DNA of 44,945 nt, from contig JARLHC010000033.1 in the NCBI GenBank assembly GCA_031292455.1, positions 1 to 44,945 of the forward strand. Reading direction: 5' to 3'. The notes under the pieces were generated by a model. It had not been told where the DNA came from, ran no database searches, and saw only the letters and a program-made list of their open reading frames with translations. Source of the stretch: Ignavibacteriaceae bacterium (GTDB lineage: Bacteria; Bacteroidota; Ignavibacteria; Ignavibacteriales; Ignavibacteriaceae). The number at the start of each line of letters is the position of its first letter. Positions within the stretch are counted from its first letter, which is position 1. Shown here piece by piece: positions 1,540-14,216 of the stretch. The position numbers were made by a program, and so were the translations under genes.

Positions 1540-2421
1540 CTACCCTCCGAAAAAGGCATCATCATACTTTTTTGCGTGTGCAGGATCTATTTTTTTTAAT
1601 GTTTGATATATATCCCTGTTAGGATAGACTTTAAAGCGTTCGGCCATTTCGCCGCTTTTAGAATCGAAGAAGACCTTCATGAGGACAGTATTGATATCGT
1701 TTTTAGCCCTAATATTATCAATGGCGTTAACGAGTTTGGCCATATTTTTAATAGCGATATTCTGATTCCAGTCAAAGACATCGAGACCATTATAATGGTA
1801 CTCATAAAAAGCTTCTCGGAAGGGGCGGTATTTCTCGCTCATGAGATCTTCCACAAGTCCTCTCCTGCTGAAGGATGCGCTGCTATTCTGCCAGCCATCA
1901 GAGTAAGCACTAGTAGCCCCAAGATTAACGAGATCCAGAGCCTTTGAAAAATATCTTGTACCACTGAGTTTATCAAAGCTATCAGCATCGAGACCAATAA
2001 TAACATTTACATAATAGTCCAAGAAACTAGTAATGGGATCATAGACAGACTGATTAGAATTGAGGGGCTGGTCTTTCTGGTACGAAAATCTCCAGGTACC
2101 ATCATTTATATTAAGCATAAGTGAATTCTGGGAGCTATGGTACAGCGGCCGTTGTGAAGTAACAACGACCTGAGCAGTATAGTTAGGTTGATCGGCGGTC
2201 TGAAGGAGGATATTCATAGAGCATTCAATCCTTCCGCCTTCCCATTTTTCCGGAGTAAATTTAGTCTTATTAAGATAGTCTTCCACCACCTTTTGAAAAC
2301 CCATAAGAGGGTCTCTAGAAGAGGTCTGCAGCTTATCCATATTTACAGTAATCTGGCAATTTAATTCCTGAGATAAGCCGACAGAAACAAAAGCCAGGAA
2401 GATAAAAAGGAAGTATTTCAT
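1540..2421 (-). CDS. porD: DUF4835 / type IX secretion PorD-like protein
   Basis: The 293-residue product has an N-terminal signal peptide (MKYFLFIFLAFVSVGLSQ, cleavage after Gln likely). The mature N-terminus (ELNCQITVNMDKLQ) is the hallmark of DUF4835 proteins, named PorD in T9SS-bearing Bacteroidota. A second conserved segment, TKFTPEKWEGGRIECS, follows. Two cysteines in the mature N-terminal third (in ELNC and RIECS) may form a disulfide. The mechanistic role of PorD in T9SS is not settled; it is periplasmic or outer-membrane associated. The gene is divergent from a PorV-like gene 79 bp away. A T9SS substrate is encoded further along the window (33840-37649). Confidence 0.8.
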   Translation of the reverse strand: MKYFLFIFLAFVSVGLSQELNCQITVNMDKLQTSSRDPLMGFQKVVEDYLNKTKFTPEKWEGGRIECSMNILLQTADQPNYTAQVVVTSQRPLYHSSQNSLMLNINDGTWRFSYQKDQPLNSNQSVYDPITSFLDYYVNVIIGLDADSFDKLSGTRYFSKALDLVNLGATSAYSDGWQNSSASFSRRGLVEDLMSEKYRPFREAFYEYHYNGLDVFDWNQNIAIKNMAKLVNAIDNIRAKNDINTVLMKVFFDSKSGEMAERFKVYPNRDIYQTLKKIDPAHAKKYDDAFFGG

Positions 2422-2500
2422 ACACTGACCACTAAATAATTTATTTTATTGATTTAATATAGAAATTTACATATATATTAAACAATGAATTAAAATTTCT

Positions 2501-3355
2501 ATGCGGGTTTTATTTCACCTTTTAATAATTAGTGCTATTACATCGTTCTCCTATGGTCAGATGAATCCGGGAGCTAAGCAGATATCTATGTCCAATTCAG
2601 ATGCAGCTCTTTCGGACGATGTTTTTGCACTTTTTAATAATCCTGCCGGGTTAGCACAACTTAACTGGCGGGAGGTAGGGATATATTATTCCCCTGCCCC
2701 ATTCGGGTTAAATGAATTAAAGAATGCATATATAGCATACGTTGAACCATTAGGTTTCGGTTCCGCAGGAATAGGAGCGATGACATATGGATTTGAATTA
2801 TACCGTGAGTCCAAAATACTGCTCAGTTTTTCAACATCATATCTTCATAAATTTTTTGCAGGTGTTTCCTGTAACTATCATTTAGTTTCAATTGAGGGAT
2901 ACGGGAATAAAGGAGTTATTTATCTAAATACCGGATGTTTAGGATATTTAACAGACGACCTAAGGATAGGTTTTTATGTTCAAAACCTAAACAGAGCTTC
3001 ATTCATTTCCGGTGAAGACGATATACCGATTATCCTGGATGCAGGGTTGAGCTATAATATTTATTACAACTTTAGTTTAAACTTTGCTTTAGAAAAAGAC
3101 ATAAGATACAAAGCATCGATAATGTCGGGGATCAATTATGATATAATCGACAATCTCTCATTAAGAATAGGATATGCAAATGAACCTGCCAAGTTCAGCT
3201 GCGGTATAGGGATACATTATTCCATCTTTAATTTTGATTATGCGGTATTTACCCATCCTGATTTAGGATTGACACATCAGGCAGGGATTATCATATCATT
3301 TGATAAAGAAGGGAACCGTACAAAGAATATCAGAGAATATTTAGATATAAAATGA
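2501..3355 (+). CDS. PorV/PorQ-like outer-membrane beta-barrel protein
   Basis: The 284-residue protein starts with a signal peptide (residues 1-19, ending SFSYG-Q). The mature N-terminus has the PorV/PorQ/UPF0164 signature: NPGAKQISMSNSDAALSDDVFALFNNPAGLA, where the early NPG...A..ISM..S and the NNPAGLA motif are diagnostic. The rest is alternating aromatic/polar beta strands ending in an aromatic-rich strand, as in FadL-like barrels. PorV-type proteins escort T9SS substrates; PorQ-type proteins have related roles, and I cannot separate them here. Its stop overlaps the next start by 4 bases (ATGA), so the two are translationally coupled. It is divergent from the PorD-like gene. Confidence 0.75.
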   Translation: MRVLFHLLIISAITSFSYGQMNPGAKQISMSNSDAALSDDVFALFNNPAGLAQLNWREVGIYYSPAPFGLNELKNAYIAYVEPLGFGSAGIGAMTYGFELYRESKILLSFSTSYLHKFFAGVSCNYHLVSIEGYGNKGVIYLNTGCLGYLTDDLRIGFYVQNLNRASFISGEDDIPIILDAGLSYNIYYNFSLNFALEKDIRYKASIMSGINYDIIDNLSLRIGYANEPAKFSCGIGIHYSIFNFDYAVFTHPDLGLTHQAGIIISFDKEGNRTKNIREYLDIK

Positions 3356-5340
3356 GATTTCATCCGTTGTTGTTGATTTGGAGCGTGATGATACCCGGAA
3401 TGATAATTGCGCAGGATGAGGATTCGACATCGGTTATATCGGATCAATTGATCGAGAACGTTGTATCTGAGCCAGTTACAAATAACGAGGAGTTAAATGT
3501 AATTGATTATTTAGAAGATCTGAAGAAGGAGCCAATAAACATAAATAATGCAGATTTAACCGAGCTACAGAAGATACCCGAACTTGATATTAATTACGCA
3601 GCATTAATAATAAAGCACAGAGAGAAATATGGTCATTTCTTTTCAACCGGCGAATTATATTCTATAAAGGATCTGCCGAAATACATAGTAAACGATATTA
3701 AACCCTTTATAACAATTGGTGATACAAAAAGTAAGGATATAGAGACCAAGGATGCAAACTATTCAATTCCAGATTTCACCGATATTAATTTCCGATCGCG
3801 TTTATCATATAGTTTAAATGACAACAGCCAGTCATATAAAGATTTTGCAGGATCCAGACTTAAATTATACAACAGGCTTAATATCCGAAACGGGCTGGGA
3901 GAAGCCGGTATACTTACAGAAAAGGATGCCGGGGAAAGGTCATATTATGATTTTATTTCATTCCATTTACAATTAAAAAACATATGGGATAGAGGGAATA
4001 TAGTACTTGGGGATTATTCATTTGAATTTGGCCAGGGACTGGTCTTATGGGGTCCTGTTGGATTTTCCAAAGCCACAGATGCAATATTCCCGACAAAAGT
4101 AAGAGAGAGCAAAATCCTTCCATATAACAGTACAGATGAAAACCGTTTTTTCAGAGGAATAGCAACCTCATTAAAATATAATGGATTTAATTTCTCATTC
4201 TTTTATTCCAATCACAGGTTAGATGCATCAATTGATACTGGTTCAGGAGCTATTTCAAGTTTAATTACAACGGGGTATCACAGAACTAAATCAGAGTTAA
4301 AAGACCGAAATCTAACGAGGGAGATGATCCTTGGGGGGAGCGTACATTATCGGATCAATGATATATGCCATTTAGGAATCCTTTATTTCAGTTCTAATTA
4401 CGACAGACCGTTCAGGGGATCTTTAATAAATACACCCAAGGGGAGCAAATTTCAATACTTATCTACGAGTTATGAGTCGAACATTATCCCTTCAATATAT
4501 ATTTCCGGAGAAATTGCATATGATTTCAATTCGATTGCTTCTTTAAATACATTCCAGATCTCATTCGATAAGAATTTTCTTTTTGTAAGTTCCATTAGAA
4601 ACTATCCCAGTAATTTTATATCTCTACATGGAAACAGTCTAGCCGAGCAGAGGAGCAAGGTACAGAATGAAATAGGTTATTATAACGGATTCAAATTACT
4701 GACCAGATACGGCACTCTTAACTTTTATTATGACCAGTTCAAGTTTCCATTGGGGGGGTACAGATTTCCCATAAGCAACGCAGGAGAAGAATTTCTAGTT
4801 AGTTACTCAAATACTATTAAAGAGGATATTAACATCAAATTAAATTACAAATATGAGGATAAGGACTATTTAGTTGACCAGGAGGATCAGAGATCAATAG
4901 TAAGAAGAGGAAGGAATGATGTAAGGTTATTATTGTCGTGGAATTTATTGAAAGAAGTAAGTATAAAATGCTTAGCGGAGTATAATGGCATAAGGATTAA
5001 AGAGGTAAACAGGATAGAAGAAGGGGTACTATTAGGGAATTCATTAATACTTAATTTAATAAATAATTTGAAGTTTACAGGGACAGTATGTTTTTTCAGA
5101 ACAGATTCTTACTTTTCATCAGTATATGAATATGACGGCAGCATACGAGGTTTAGTAAGAGGAGAGGTTTTATACGGAGAGGGGGTTAAATTAAGTTATT
5201 ATATAAATTATAAGCTAATAGGGGGAGTTAATTTCTCATTACAATATTCGGAGATAATTAAACCGAAAGAGCAATTGATTAATCCACTTTATTCAAATTT
5301 AACAGACAATTTTACATGTCAAGTTGAAATAATATTATAA
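3352..5340 (+). CDS. Outer-membrane barrel with N-terminal helix-hairpin-helix domain
   Basis: The 662-residue product begins with a signal peptide (residues 1-20, ending MIIAQ). Residues ~50-125 hold a ComEA/T2SK-type helix-hairpin-helix pair (ININNADLTELQKIPELD, then a second HhH with DLPKYIVNDIKPFITIG). The remaining ~520 residues alternate hydrophobic and polar strands rich in Y, F and N, as expected of a large outer-membrane barrel. Proteins with this HhH-plus-barrel design are common in Bacteroidota and lack an assigned function. In an exported protein the HhH domain may bind extracellular DNA or act as a protein-protein module; that is inference. It overlaps the upstream PorV-like gene by 4 bases, suggesting the two barrels are made together. 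Confidence 0.75.
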   Translation: MRFHPLLLIWSVMIPGMIIAQDEDSTSVISDQLIENVVSEPVTNNEELNVIDYLEDLKKEPININNADLTELQKIPELDINYAALIIKHREKYGHFFSTGELYSIKDLPKYIVNDIKPFITIGDTKSKDIETKDANYSIPDFTDINFRSRLSYSLNDNSQSYKDFAGSRLKLYNRLNIRNGLGEAGILTEKDAGERSYYDFISFHLQLKNIWDRGNIVLGDYSFEFGQGLVLWGPVGFSKATDAIFPTKVRESKILPYNSTDENRFFRGIATSLKYNGFNFSFFYSNHRLDASIDTGSGAISSLITTGYHRTKSELKDRNLTREMILGGSVHYRINDICHLGILYFSSNYDRPFRGSLINTPKGSKFQYLSTSYESNIIPSIYISGEIAYDFNSIASLNTFQISFDKNFLFVSSIRNYPSNFISLHGNSLAEQRSKVQNEIGYYNGFKLLTRYGTLNFYYDQFKFPLGGYRFPISNAGEEFLVSYSNTIKEDINIKLNYKYEDKDYLVDQEDQRSIVRRGRNDVRLLLSWNLLKEVSIKCLAEYNGIRIKEVNRIEEGVLLGNSLILNLINNLKFTGTVCFFRTDSYFSSVYEYDGSIRGLVRGEVLYGEGVKLSYYINYKLIGGVNFSLQYSEIIKPKEQLINPLYSNLTDNFTCQVEIIL

Positions 5341-5341
5341 T

Positions 5342-6394
5342 TTATTTCAAACCATTAACAAAGAACATATCAATTTCCCCCATGCCTTTAGCATTCAATT
5401 TACCTCTATACTCGCAGTCATAAACATCTTTAACCAAATCGTAAGTATTGCGAGTAATATTGATTTTCCCGGGTTCACAAGAGTTTTCCATTCTGCTTGC
5501 AATGTTGACAGTATCTCCCCAGACGTCATAGGTAAATTTATGTGTTCCGACAATTCCGGCTACCACCTGTCCACTATTAACGCCTATTCTTAATTTCCAT
5601 TCCGGTAATTGTTTCAGATTTAACTTATTCATATATTCGAGCATTTTGAAAGCCACCTCAATTATTTTCAAGGCATGGTCATCACTTTCTTTCGGCAGCC
5701 CCCCGCCGATCATATAAGTATCCCCAATAGTTTTCATTTTTTCAAGTCCGGCATTTTCAACGAATACATCGAATTTATGGTAAATCTCATTAAGCTGGCC
5801 AACCACCTTGACGGGTTCATGTTTTTGAATTAAACCGCTAAAATCGTGAAAGTTACAGAACATAATAGTAATAGCTTCAAATAATCTTGGAGCAATTGAG
5901 CCATTTTTTTTAAGTTCCCGCACAATAGCAGCAGGAAGAATGTTCAGGAGAAGTTTGTCAGTTTTTTTCTTTTCCTCTTCGAGTTCTAAAGTTTTAAGTT
6001 TCAGGAGAGATTCAATCTTATGTTTATATAAGCCCATTTCTATAGCAGAATGCAGACCTTTCTGGTCGAATGGTTTAACCAGATATCCGAAGGGTTCCGT
6101 AATTTTTGCTTTATGAAAGGTTTCTTCGTCAGTCAGACCGGTAATATAAATAACGGGGATATCAAACTTTCTTCTGATAGCTTCAGCAGCTTCAATGCCA
6201 GAAATCCCACCGCTCAGCATTATATCCATTAACACCAGATCGGGTTTTAATTCACCAGTAAGGTCAATAGCGGCTTCACCGGACTTTACAATATTAACAA
6301 CCTCATAACCAATTCGCTCAATTGTTTTTTTGATATCAAGTCCTATAATCTTTTCGTCTTCGACTATAAGAATTCTGGGTTTTAATTCATTCAT
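5342..6394 (-). CDS. Receiver-class III adenylate cyclase fusion, metal-site Asp replaced (paralogue B)
   Basis: Residues 1-125 form a receiver domain (acidic pocket E12/D13, phospho-acceptor D57, K107 in VKPF). A charged coiled linker (125-150) leads to a class III nucleotide cyclase domain (~165-350). In the cyclase, the first metal-binding Asp is Asn (N181, in MFCNFHDFSGL). The second Asp (D225 in KTIGDTYM), the adenine-recognising K221/D290, N297 and the transition-state R301 are all present. Cyclases work as dimers with two shared sites, so this subunit can supply the K/D/N/R half but only a damaged metal half. It lies 31 bp downstream of its paralogue (6426-7520), which has the opposite defect. 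No membrane segments are seen. Product would be cAMP by family; cGMP cannot be excluded. Confidence 0.85.
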   Translation of the reverse strand: MNELKPRILIVEDEKIIGLDIKKTIERIGYEVVNIVKSGEAAIDLTGELKPDLVLMDIMLSGGISGIEAAEAIRRKFDIPVIYITGLTDEETFHKAKITEPFGYLVKPFDQKGLHSAIEMGLYKHKIESLLKLKTLELEEEKKKTDKLLLNILPAAIVRELKKNGSIAPRLFEAITIMFCNFHDFSGLIQKHEPVKVVGQLNEIYHKFDVFVENAGLEKMKTIGDTYMIGGGLPKESDDHALKIIEVAFKMLEYMNKLNLKQLPEWKLRIGVNSGQVVAGIVGTHKFTYDVWGDTVNIASRMENSCEPGKINITRNTYDLVKDVYDCEYRGKLNAKGMGEIDMFFVNGLK

Positions 6395-6425
6395 TGGAAG
6401 TATAGTATATTAATGGAATAACTTA

Positions 6426-7520
6426 TTAACCGGAAACAGGGACTGATTCTATTTTTCTATTTACATTTAAAGATTTATCAGCAATCACATAATACATATC
6501 TATTTTCCCGTTTCCCGGGATGTCAATAGCGCCCCTATATTCACAGTCAAATTCGTCTTTTATCAGATTAAAAGTAGCTGCTGTAACATTTATTTTCCCA
6601 GGGATGCTATGCCGTTCCATCTTACTAGCCAAATTCACTGTATTCCCCCATACGTCATAGCTATATTTAATTTTGCCAACGACACCTGCAACGATATTGC
6701 CAGAATGAACTCCAGCTCTCATTTTCCATTCATGTTTAGATGTATTATTCCGTGCAATAATCATATTCTGCATCTCGATGGCTGCTCTAACAATATTTAC
6801 AGCATGCTCTTTAGTTTCGACCGGAAAGCCACCTCCTACCATATAGGAATCGCCAATAGTTTTTAATTTTTCAAGGCCATATTTATTAATAATCTTATCG
6901 AAGTTCATGAATATTTCATTAAGTTCTGCTACCAATTCACCCGGGGGCATATTTGAAGCAAGCCGGGTGAAACCTTCAAAATCAGTAAACAGCAGGGAGA
7001 CACATTCATAATCCCTTGGTTTTATGACCCCTTTTTCTTTCAATTCCTTAATAATCTGGATAGGGAGAATATTCTGCAAAAGTAGGTCGGACTTTTCCTT
7101 TTCAGCTTTGAGTTCCTGTGTTCTTTCTTTAAGCTTTTTATTTATATCATGTTTATAAAGAGCCATTTCGATAGAAGTATGTAGTGTCCTTTCGTCATAG
7201 GGTTTCAAAATATATCCGAAAGGTTCAGTCAGTTTAGCTTTTTCCAATGTTGCAGTATCTGCGTATGCAGTAAGATAAATAACCGGGATGTCATGAGTAT
7301 TCATTATTTCCTCGGCAGCATCAATGCCAGAAATTTTTCCATCAAGCATAACATCCATAAGGATCAAATCCGGCTTCAGATCAACTGCTTTCTGAATTAC
7401 TTCCCTTCCATTTCTACAAGAACCGATTACCTTATAGGACAGTTTTTCCAATGTTTTAGCTATATCGATAGCAATAACAGCCTCATCTTCGGCAATCAAA
7501 ATACGACAGGGTTTTTCCAT
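6426..7520 (-). CDS. Receiver-class III adenylate cyclase fusion, transition-state Arg replaced (paralogue A)
   Basis: The 364-residue protein has the same layout as its downstream neighbour: receiver (1-125; D56, K106 in LKPY), coiled linker (~125-150), cyclase (~165-350). The metal pair is intact (D180 in LFTDFEGFT; D224 in KTIGDSYM). K220, D289 and N296 are kept, but the transition-state Arg is Lys (K300 in VNLASKME). That is a conservative change which usually lowers activity strongly in this family. It is first in an apparent two-gene minus-strand unit. The pattern suggests that it pairs with the 5342 product to build one complete active site. Phosphorylation of the receivers presumably controls dimerisation. 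Confidence 0.85.
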   Translation of the reverse strand: MEKPCRILIAEDEAVIAIDIAKTLEKLSYKVIGSCRNGREVIQKAVDLKPDLILMDVMLDGKISGIDAAEEIMNTHDIPVIYLTAYADTATLEKAKLTEPFGYILKPYDERTLHTSIEMALYKHDINKKLKERTQELKAEKEKSDLLLQNILPIQIIKELKEKGVIKPRDYECVSLLFTDFEGFTRLASNMPPGELVAELNEIFMNFDKIINKYGLEKLKTIGDSYMVGGGFPVETKEHAVNIVRAAIEMQNMIIARNNTSKHEWKMRAGVHSGNIVAGVVGKIKYSYDVWGNTVNLASKMERHSIPGKINVTAATFNLIKDEFDCEYRGAIDIPGNGKIDMYYVIADKSLNVNRKIESVPVSG

Positions 7521-7901: not shown

Positions 7902-10253
7902 ATGCAAAGTTCAAAAATAGAATTTCTTTCCAAGTATAACGATCTATTAAATATAGCGTTAAAGTCCCAACAGGATTTTCCGGATATAATATCAGATTAT
8001 CTTGTCAGCGAATATGAACTTGAAGCTGTTACAATATTCAAAATAGCTGATAATTTAACCCTTTCTGTTTTAGGCAGATCATCTTCGGCAAAAAAATCGT
8101 TCATAAAGAACGCTAACTTTGAATGCAATAATTGCTTTTGCATAAAATCTGCAGCTGATTTTAATCAAATAAACATGCAATCGGATTGTGAAATTCAGAT
8201 TACGGATTACATGATCTATGAGGTCTGCATAAAGTTTAAATACTCGAATAATACTGCATTAATAAAGATTGCAAAAAAGACGCCATTCACGAATATTGAC
8301 CGTGATCAGATAAGAATGGTTAGTTTTGCCTTAGGTAATATTTTCACTATCTGGGCAGGAAACGAAAAGAAAGAATCGAATTTAAGTTCAATTATAATTG
8401 ATATTGCAAGTGAACTCCGGACACCAACCAACAGCATAATGGGATTCATATCACTACTGAATGAAGATAATCTTTCTTCATCGCAGGCGGAATATGTTTC
8501 CACAATGAAAGAGAACGCACATTATCTGCTTGCATTAATGAATGATCTTATAGATTTAGCCAAATTCGATTCAGGGCAGATTAAGGAATCTCCTGCAACA
8601 ATTAATCTCAAGAATTTTGTAGGAGATATAGTAAAAACATTTACGGATAAGATCGATCAGAACAAGATAGAAATTCTGACTAATTTTGATAAGATTCTAC
8701 CAGAAACGGTTAAACTAGATTCGCAAAAGTTAAAGTATATTTTAATCAATATAATAGCTAATTCTTTACGGCTTACAGAAAGAGGGAAGATAACAATCAG
8801 CATTTCCTCCAGTATTCCGGGAAGAATCAATTTCAGGATATCCGATACATCTGCCGGTCTATCTTCTAATAAAGTAAAAGAATTTTTCAAACCATTCTCA
8901 ATTACAGACCTATCAAATAATAAAACCGGAAACGCCACAGGGTTAGGATTGGCTCTTTCGAAGCTATATATAGAATTTTTGAATGGGAACATTGATATAA
9001 GTTCTTCACTGGGAAAGGGGACTTCCTACAATTTCACTATAAAAGTTGATGATTTACCGATAATTGAAAGCACGATCACTTCCCTTCCCAAACCGGGGAA
9101 AAAGAACAGAGTATTAGTTGTAGAAGATGATTATGCCACATCGAAGCTATTAAGCAATTACCTGAATAAATGGGGTTATGAACCAGTTATAGTGAATTCT
9201 GCCGACCAAGCTCTTAAAGCGATAGAGAAGGAAGTGTTCCTTGCTGTATTAATGGATATTGTTTTACCAGATGCAAATGGCTTTGAACTTCTTAAGCAGA
9301 TCAGAGAACATAAGAATTCAAAAAATACACCAGTTATTGTGTGTTCAGTAGAAGCCGAGCAGCAGAAAGCGTTCTTAATGGGAGCGGTTGAATATTTTGT
9401 TAAACCCATTAAATACAAATTTTTAGTTGAGGTACTTACAAGCTACAGGCTTAAAAAAGACAGTAATATTCTCGTAGTTGATGATGATGTGCCGACATTA
9501 TCGTTAATCAAAGAAGCGATAATACAGGCAGGTTATAATGCGATAGCGGAATCTCATTCTGCAAAGGTCTATAGTATGATTGAGGATATGCATCTGGATC
9601 TTGCAATAATAGACTTAGACATGCCGGAATTAAATGGTTATGATCTGATAAAGCAGATTAAGTCAGATCCTAAATTTTCAAAGCTTCCAATAATAATATA
9701 TACGGGAAAGGAAAACTATAAGGATGATTTAAAGAAAATAGATGGATTGTTTACAGAACTGCTTCAGAAATCGAGCAGCAATATTGAAGACCTATCCGAT
9801 ACAATAAATCAGATGATTAACAGATATGATGAACCTACACCGCCTGAAGTAGTGGCTGCACAGAAGGACGGAGTAAAGATACTTCTAGTAGAGGATTATA
9901 AACACTCCCAGATTATTGTAACGAGACTACTCAAGAAGAATAATTTTGATTCAATAGTCGTAGTAGAGAATGGTGCAGAGGCAGTAGATCAGGTAAAGAA
10001 ACAAAAATTTGATCTTATACTGATGGATATGCAAATGCCTATAATGAATGGTTTCGAAGCTACAGAAAAGATTAGATTAATGCCCGAATATAAAGATACC
10101 CCAATAATAGCCCTCACTGCATTTGCAATGAAGGGAGACAGGGAAAAATGTTTAGACGCAGGTGCCACGGATTATATTCCTAAGCCAATAGACAGCCAAG
10201 AATTTATCCAAAAAGTAAAATATTATACTGAGTTAAAAGTAAGCATTAGCTAA
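7902..10253 (+). CDS. Hybrid histidine-kinase-like protein with three receivers, phospho-acceptor His lost
   Basis: Domain order in 783 residues: an N-terminal ~150-residue sensor-like region (GAF-like by position) containing a Cys cluster C75/C78/C80; a HisKA-like segment (~160-230); an ATPase domain (~270-385); receivers with acceptors D452, D571 and D709. The H-box reads DIASELRTPTNSIMGF: the invariant His before ELRTP is Ser (S170). The ATPase G1 box is DTSAGL instead of DTGxG, while the N box (NIIANS) and G2 (GNATGLGLAL) look intact. The protein should therefore not autophosphorylate on His. It may bind ATP and act as a phosphate hub or sink through its three receivers. No transmembrane segments are seen, so it is cytoplasmic. 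It is divergent from the two receiver-cyclases, whose receivers are candidate partners. Confidence 0.85.
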   Translation: MQSSKIEFLSKYNDLLNIALKSQQDFPDIISDYLVSEYELEAVTIFKIADNLTLSVLGRSSSAKKSFIKNANFECNNCFCIKSAADFNQINMQSDCEIQITDYMIYEVCIKFKYSNNTALIKIAKKTPFTNIDRDQIRMVSFALGNIFTIWAGNEKKESNLSSIIIDIASELRTPTNSIMGFISLLNEDNLSSSQAEYVSTMKENAHYLLALMNDLIDLAKFDSGQIKESPATINLKNFVGDIVKTFTDKIDQNKIEILTNFDKILPETVKLDSQKLKYILINIIANSLRLTERGKITISISSSIPGRINFRISDTSAGLSSNKVKEFFKPFSITDLSNNKTGNATGLGLALSKLYIEFLNGNIDISSSLGKGTSYNFTIKVDDLPIIESTITSLPKPGKKNRVLVVEDDYATSKLLSNYLNKWGYEPVIVNSADQALKAIEKEVFLAVLMDIVLPDANGFELLKQIREHKNSKNTPVIVCSVEAEQQKAFLMGAVEYFVKPIKYKFLVEVLTSYRLKKDSNILVVDDDVPTLSLIKEAIIQAGYNAIAESHSAKVYSMIEDMHLDLAIIDLDMPELNGYDLIKQIKSDPKFSKLPIIIYTGKENYKDDLKKIDGLFTELLQKSSSNIEDLSDTINQMINRYDEPTPPEVVAAQKDGVKILLVEDYKHSQIIVTRLLKKNNFDSIVVVENGAEAVDQVKKQKFDLILMDMQMPIMNGFEATEKIRLMPEYKDTPIIALTAFAMKGDREKCLDAGATDYIPKPIDSQEFIQKVKYYTELKVSIS

Positions 10254-13611: not shown

Positions 13612-13838
13612 CATGAAATTATTCATTTCCTAAAAAGCAAGGGTAAGGGGGTTATTATTTTTATGAAATGGATACTGTGTGCTTCAGAACACCCCTTATA
13701 ATTATTCGAAAAAGATAGATAGCGCTTTCAAAAAAGAATAATTATGTTTCCCCAGAAAATTTGCTGAGAATAATTATTATACGATATGCAAAATCAAATT
13801 CATTTTCCTCAAATACACACCTAAATTATCCCATAATT

Positions 13839-14216
13839 ATGCAGAAAGGTATTAAAATACTAATAGTTGAAGATGAAGCGATAACTGCCATGTATCTTCA
13901 GATGCGATTAAAAAAATTGTCATATGAAGTAGTGAAGCCTGTTGGATCAGGAGAGAATGCTATTCAAGTTGCACAGCAAGAATGTCCTAATTTTATACTA
14001 ATGGATATTGGTTTAGCAGGGAAGCTGGATGGAATACAGACTGCAAGGGAAATACTTCAATTTAGCGATGCTTATATAATATTTATGAGTGGTTATAATG
14101 ATGATGAATTGCGTGAGCAAGTAAAATTATTACAGCCATCTTCCTTTCTTTTGAAACCTATAGGAGTAAATGATATAGTCGGAATAATAGAGATGCAACA
14201 AAAGGAAGCATCATAG
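13839..14216 (+). CDS. Stand-alone response-regulator receiver
   Basis: The 125-residue protein is a single receiver domain: acidic pocket E11/D12, phospho-acceptor D56 (ILMDIGLAGKLDG), a Ser in the switch position (FMSGY) and K in LLKPIG. I chose the ATG at 13839 because it begins right at the domain. The upstream in-frame ATG at 13761 would add 26 residues unlike any receiver extension. There is no output domain, so it acts by protein contact or as a relay. The GLAGKLDGI segment resembles the receivers fused to the cyclases at 5342-7520. Its end overlaps the convergent hom gene by 6 bases. Confidence 0.85.
   Translation: MQKGIKILIVEDEAITAMYLQMRLKKLSYEVVKPVGSGENAIQVAQQECPNFILMDIGLAGKLDGIQTAREILQFSDAYIIFMSGYNDDELREQVKLLQPSSFLLKPIGVNDIVGIIEMQQKEAS

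Follow-up and report, generated by a model that had tools for sequence, protein, structure and literature searches.

Class III cyclases that work as heterodimers are known in eukaryotes. The mammalian membrane adenylyl cyclase carries C1 and C2 on a single fused chain; C1 possesses the metal ligands and lacks the catalytic Arg and Lys1065, and C2 possesses Arg and Lys1065 and has lost metal ligands. Human sGC has one working site and its homodimers are inactive (PMC3591389). Its subunits are separate proteins, of which alpha provides the metal ligands and beta the Arg and Lys. NeoR of Rhizoclosmatium globosum supplies the metals and lacks the Arg (K459, an R-to-K replacement), RGC1 gives the base-selecting residues and the pair has one working site; removal of the dead-site metal Asp, as in RGC1-D379A, resulted in ninefold higher activity of this fungal enzyme (PMC12264004). 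According to a 2022 review, bacterial class III enzymes homodimerize with the monomers contributing equally, and no fused dimer was known in bacteria (PMC9552081). Homodimeric bacterial cyclases of the Rv1625c/Cya type possess all residues in one chain and form two equivalent sites. Our literature searches, which were limited to open-licence papers, found no natural bacterial class III heterodimer. As far as we found, the single-site split is known in animal and fungal cyclases and is apparently undescribed in bacteria.

In this study, two adjacent genes, termed A and B, were analyzed in a contig of an Ignavibacteriaceae bacterium (JARLHC010000033.1; 44,945 nucleotides, hereafter the window). 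Judged from their residues, A and B probably form a heterodimeric, receiver-regulated class III adenylyl cyclase with a single catalytic site, of which dimerization, activity and gating are all predicted features.

Domain organization of A and B

The two genes and their domains are located as follows.

6426..7520, minus strand: gene A, 364 aa, transcribed first; receiver, 40-residue helix and class III cyclase domain; putative metal-giving subunit without the catalytic Arg
5342..6394, minus strand: gene B, 350 aa, downstream; receiver, helix and class III cyclase domain; Arg, Lys, Asp and Asn retained, first metal Asp lost
6395..6425, minus strand: gap of 31 nt between the stop of A and the start of B
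7170..7502, minus strand: receiver domain of A, residues 7-117; D12, D56, T84 and K106 intact
6038..6373, minus strand: receiver domain of B, residues 8-119; D13, D57, T85 and K107 intact
6486..7019, minus strand: cyclase domain of A, residues 168-345 (PF00211)
5351..5884, minus strand: cyclase domain of B, residues 171-348 (PF00211)

Both open reading frames and the 31-nt gap were as described in an earlier sequence-only reading of this DNA. A and B were 50% identical and lie in different reading frames, and in both the helix between the receiver and the cyclase domain is about 40 residues long. The receivers matched the Pfam profile PF00072, and the Asp phospho-acceptor, acidic pocket, Thr and Lys that mark response regulators were invariant in all 29 proteins compared. 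The cyclase domains matched Guanylate_cyc (PF00211) with E-values of 1e-52 for A and 8e-54 for B (178.5 and 182.4 bits, respectively; cut-off 21.9 bits), by which both proteins belong to the class III nucleotidyl cyclases. The AlphaFold2 single-chain models of A and B had mean pLDDT values of 90.3 and 91.2, respectively. In Foldseek, the solved folds closest to them were 5o5l and 5o5k, soluble domains of bacterial Cya, a similarity to the homodimeric Rv1625c/Cya type.

Active-site residues of A and B

The positions that distinguish the two active sites are listed below.

6981..6983, minus strand: A D180, first metal Asp, kept
6849..6851, minus strand: A D224, second metal Asp, kept
6621..6623, minus strand: A K300, at the position of the transition-state Arg, which is lost
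6516..6518, minus strand: A P335, at the position of the second phosphate-binding Lys (equivalent of C2 Lys1065), which is lost
5852..5854, minus strand: B N181, at the position of the first metal Asp, which is lost
5720..5722, minus strand: B D225, second metal Asp, kept here and replaced by Asn in the sister species G001
5492..5494, minus strand: B R301, transition-state Arg, kept
5387..5389, minus strand: B K336, second phosphate-binding Lys, kept

The remaining site residues are K220, D289 and N296 in A and K221, D290 and N297 in B. In a HMMER alignment with solved mammalian cyclases, K300 of A fell on the C2 arginine and N181 of B on the first metal Asp. All residues named in the sequence-only reading (D180, D224 and K300 of A; N181, R301, K221, D290 and N297 of B) were correct; it had missed the Pro335 of A in place of the second phosphate-binding Lys, which B retains as K336, and the retained second metal Asp of B, D225. 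Different from the homodimeric bacterial type, neither chain possesses the full active-site set, as A lacks the Arg and the Lys and B lacks the first metal Asp. The residue logic of that reading, by which in the window only the A-B heterodimer has a complete site, holds.

The R-to-K replacement in A of the window is conservative, and activity would be lowered rather than certainly abolished. Loss of the catalytic Arg reportedly lowers but does not abolish cyclase activity (Yan et al. 1997). The base-selecting residues carried the adenylyl signature, with Lys in 20 of the 20 paired proteins found in this study and Asp in 19 (Glu in A of G075). Lys and Asp at these positions indicate that ATP would be the substrate.

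Tandem pairs in related genomes

The survey covered 80 genomes of the family and 164 of the order. Tandem A-B pairs were identified in 10 genomes of three genera, all within one family; the residue at the Arg position of A is given in brackets.

Genus g1: G000, the window genome (K), and G001 (K)
Genus g4: G031 (T), G066 (I), G071 (A), G072 (K), G074 (K), G075 (I) and G076 (I)
Genus g6: G006 (L)

The gaps of the other nine pairs ranged from -32 to 179 nt, and A was always first. Both metal Asp residues were present in the upstream A of all 10 pairs, and the equivalent of C2 Lys1065 was lost from A in 9. The Lys, Asp, Asn, Arg and Lys1065 equivalent were all present in B of all 10 pairs. Moreover, the phosphate loop YRG...K..G did not vary among the B proteins and was degenerate in those of type A, whereas the position of D224 was invariant in A and variable in B. 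The metal positions of B were N/D in the window, N/N in G001 and D/A in G006 and were intact in the other 7 pairs. The B metal losses thus occurred in two lineages, the window genus and G006, each time beside an A with both metal ligands. Because A keeps the metals without the Arg and B keeps the Arg and Lys, an A-A dimer has no complete site and an A-B dimer has exactly one, which was the case for all 10 pairs; a B-B dimer has none in 3 pairs and two in 7.

The expectation that the split would be kept in relatives was therefore largely borne out, in that A without Arg and with both Asp residues accompanies B with Arg in every pair. Metal ligands were missing from B in 3 of the 10 pairs only, and elsewhere the mirror-image split is therefore incomplete. 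This qualifies the sequence-only reading, as B looks competent as a homodimer in the other 7 pairs. Homodimers of one subunit, most likely B, might be the catalysts, with the partner as a regulatory pseudo-subunit that competes for dimerization or binds ATP. In addition to the intact B in 7 of 10 pairs, this explanation draws on the fungal RGC1-cat, which alone is active as a homodimer although its natural partner is NeoR (PMC12264004). The metal ligands of B are, however, lost in the window genus and G006 (N/D, N/N and D/A), which makes B-B unlikely as the sole enzyme there, A-A lacks the Arg in all pairs, and no third enzyme is at hand: a Pfam search of the window genome, which is 97% complete, found PF00211 domains in A and B only. 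Catalysis by homodimers is thus unlikely. A and B were also the sole PF00211 domains in 7 of the 9 other paired genomes.

No B without A was found among the 164 genomes of the order, and among the bacterial families searched the A/B duplication was seen in one only. This co-inheritance in tandem, with A first, agrees with the heterodimer and is also compatible with other models.

Phylogeny and selection

For comparison, 86 domains of related cyclases, encoded at 80 loci in other genomes, were examined; the search patterns by which they were retrieved did not include the metal Asp, Arg or second Lys positions. All seven catalytic residues were kept in 84 of them and the Asn was missing from 2; loss of a metal Asp, the Arg or the second Lys was found in none of the 86. 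The residue split between A and B is beyond chance, as judged by this comparison. When the catalytic columns were masked for tree building, a minimum of 11 Arg/Lys changes mapped to A and none to B, whereas the 3 metal changes mapped to B and none to A (Fisher p 0.003, with minimum parsimony counts treated as independent). A general tendency of this cyclase group to lose the Arg was ruled out by the same 86 domains, yet G018 and G096 show Arg loss without a pair.

The ten B proteins were clustered together (85–88% bootstrap). They were separated at 96–99% support from an A-like group that comprised all A proteins, the lone A-type proteins described below, g29 and G011, which places the duplication before the genera involved. 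Both groupings also disfavour separate duplications in each genus. An AU test on a clade of A plus the lone g4 proteins gave a p of 0.16, by which that clade is neither rejected nor shown. The dN/dS values of the A and B cyclase domains were 0.04–0.10; thus, both are under strong purifying selection and neither is decaying, and gene decay was ruled out as an explanation.

A-type cyclases without B

An Arg-less A-type cyclase without B was identified in seven genomes, five of g4 and two of g18. The Arg is replaced by Leu in the five g4 genomes (G004, G067, G068, G069 and G073), of which two are less than 90% complete; G004 and G067, which are 98–99% complete, contain no further class III cyclase. 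The lone cyclases of g18 (L067 and L069 in G018 and G096) are fused to a propeller and have Phe or Leu in place of the Arg. In G011, an A-type gene with an Arg-to-Phe replacement lies at a contig end, so it may have a B partner. In the tree, the lone g4 genes grouped with A, a moderately supported placement which suggests that B was lost from these genomes after the duplication. Two further lone A-like cyclases, in G029 and G101 (L043 and L105), possess the Arg and lack the second phosphate-binding Lys; their Arg was either never lost or was regained after loss of B.

Given these seven genomes, Arg loss is not strictly bound to a partner. The dN/dS values of the lone g4 A genes were about 0.05–0.08, and this conservation implies that A has some use without B. 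It is therefore conceivable that A acts on its own as a cyclase that is Arg-independent or of low activity, whose metals, Lys, Asp and Asn are enough for slow, regulated cAMP synthesis, and that B is an accessory copy. The persistence of the lone genes under purifying selection, the free variation of the Arg position in A (K, T, L, I and A) and the lowered rather than abolished activity that is said to follow Arg loss would all agree with such a role. Nevertheless, we regard it as rather improbable, since A has lost, besides the Arg, the second phosphate-binding Lys and the residues of the YRG loop, which are invariant in B, and since B is equally constrained and, across the 164 genomes of the order, was always accompanied by A.

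Genomic context

The window genome encodes 8 cNMP-binding proteins. Among these, a CRP/FNR-type regulator has the typical Glu...Arg-Ser pocket for the nucleotide, and a similar pocket motif occurs in two more. CRP-type helix-turn-helix proteins were present in all 10 genomes tested.

The neighborhood of the pair is common to the family. In the window, positions 1540-5340 encode a DUF4835 protein, a 284-aa protein and a 662-aa helix-hairpin-helix protein; after the 662-aa gene, the family-wide order is cyclase(s), a kinase-like gene and a gene resembling glutamyl-tRNA synthetase. One intact propeller-cyclase fusion is at the position of the cyclase pair in G023. A stand-alone receiver protein (13761-14216, plus strand) lies a few kb from the pair, past two aminoacyl-tRNA-synthetase-like genes. 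Elsewhere in the same class, one genome carries about five tandem cyclases of about 670 aa (G200:C64:3702-12191); the one copy whose active-site residues were examined (L092) is intact.

The divergent neighbor of the pair (7902-10253, plus strand) encodes a hybrid histidine-kinase-like protein with HisKA, HATPase and three receivers, in which Ser takes the place of the phospho-acceptor His (IASELRTP). The corresponding position is Ser in G001, Gln in G004, G067 and G068, and His in G006, G029, G101 and G023. The phospho-acceptor is lost repeatedly in the kinase-like gene beside the cyclase locus.

That this neighbor also lacks its phospho-acceptor His in the window genus, together with the lesions in both A and B, raises the question of whether A and B are both pseudo-cyclases that serve receiver-driven signaling or nucleotide binding and make no cAMP. 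Such a role is very unlikely: the lesions of A and those of B affect opposite halves of a single composite site and leave the full set to A-B in all 10 pairs, the other catalytic residues hardly vary and CRP-type regulators are present.

Proposed mechanism and comparison with known systems

In the proposed heterodimer, A would give both metal-binding Asp residues (D180 and D224), and B would give K221/D290 for adenine selection, Asn297, Arg301 for the transition state and Lys336 for phosphate binding. The other site, related to this one by pseudo-symmetry, combines the metal positions of B with the Arg/Lys side of A and would be broken. As both receivers have complete phosphorylation residues, they possibly form a two-input gate on the cyclase, in which phosphorylation of the intact receiver on the long helix of each subunit might determine the geometry of the dimer or the choice of partner. 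The cAMP produced would serve the CRP-type regulators in the cell.

Similar to A and B, NeoR/RGC1 combines a metal-Asp subunit without the Arg, with the same R-to-K replacement, and a partner with the base-selecting residues and the Arg; that partner is intact, as is B in 7 of the 10 pairs. These seven pairs would resemble NeoR/RGC1, and the window genus and G006 would resemble C1/C2, in which both sides are split. Different from NeoR/RGC1, which is eukaryotic, membrane rhodopsin-fused and makes cGMP, A and B are bacterial, soluble and receiver-fused and carry the Lys/Asp signature of ATP use. C1 is like A, and C2 is like B of the window and G001, but A and B are soluble, are encoded as separate proteins and derive from a duplication seen in a single bacterial family among those searched. 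sGC shares with A and B the separate subunits and their division of metals from Arg and Lys; its haem-NO sensor, cGMP product, animal origin and lack of receiver domains set it apart. The increase in fungal activity upon removal of the dead-site metal suggests, by analogy, why B could lose its metals.

We tentatively propose that the family evolved the C1/C2-type split independently as a two-gene, receiver-controlled obligate heterodimer, with two phosphorylation inputs converging on a single catalytic site, and that its members represent stages from a defective A with an intact B to two complementary defective subunits. Against an obligate pair stand the seven genomes with a lone Arg-less A-type cyclase, the complete B in 7 of 10 pairs and a B metal loss that amounts to three substitutions. 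The related genomes offer natural intermediates, in which B is intact, has lost one metal ligand, has lost both or is absent. If the proposal is true, this series would show how asymmetric cyclases arise, namely that a duplication followed by losses in the two opposite halves can produce the asymmetric design of eukaryotes ahead of any gene fusion, and A and B would provide a soluble system for probing the dead second site and a receiver coincidence gate.
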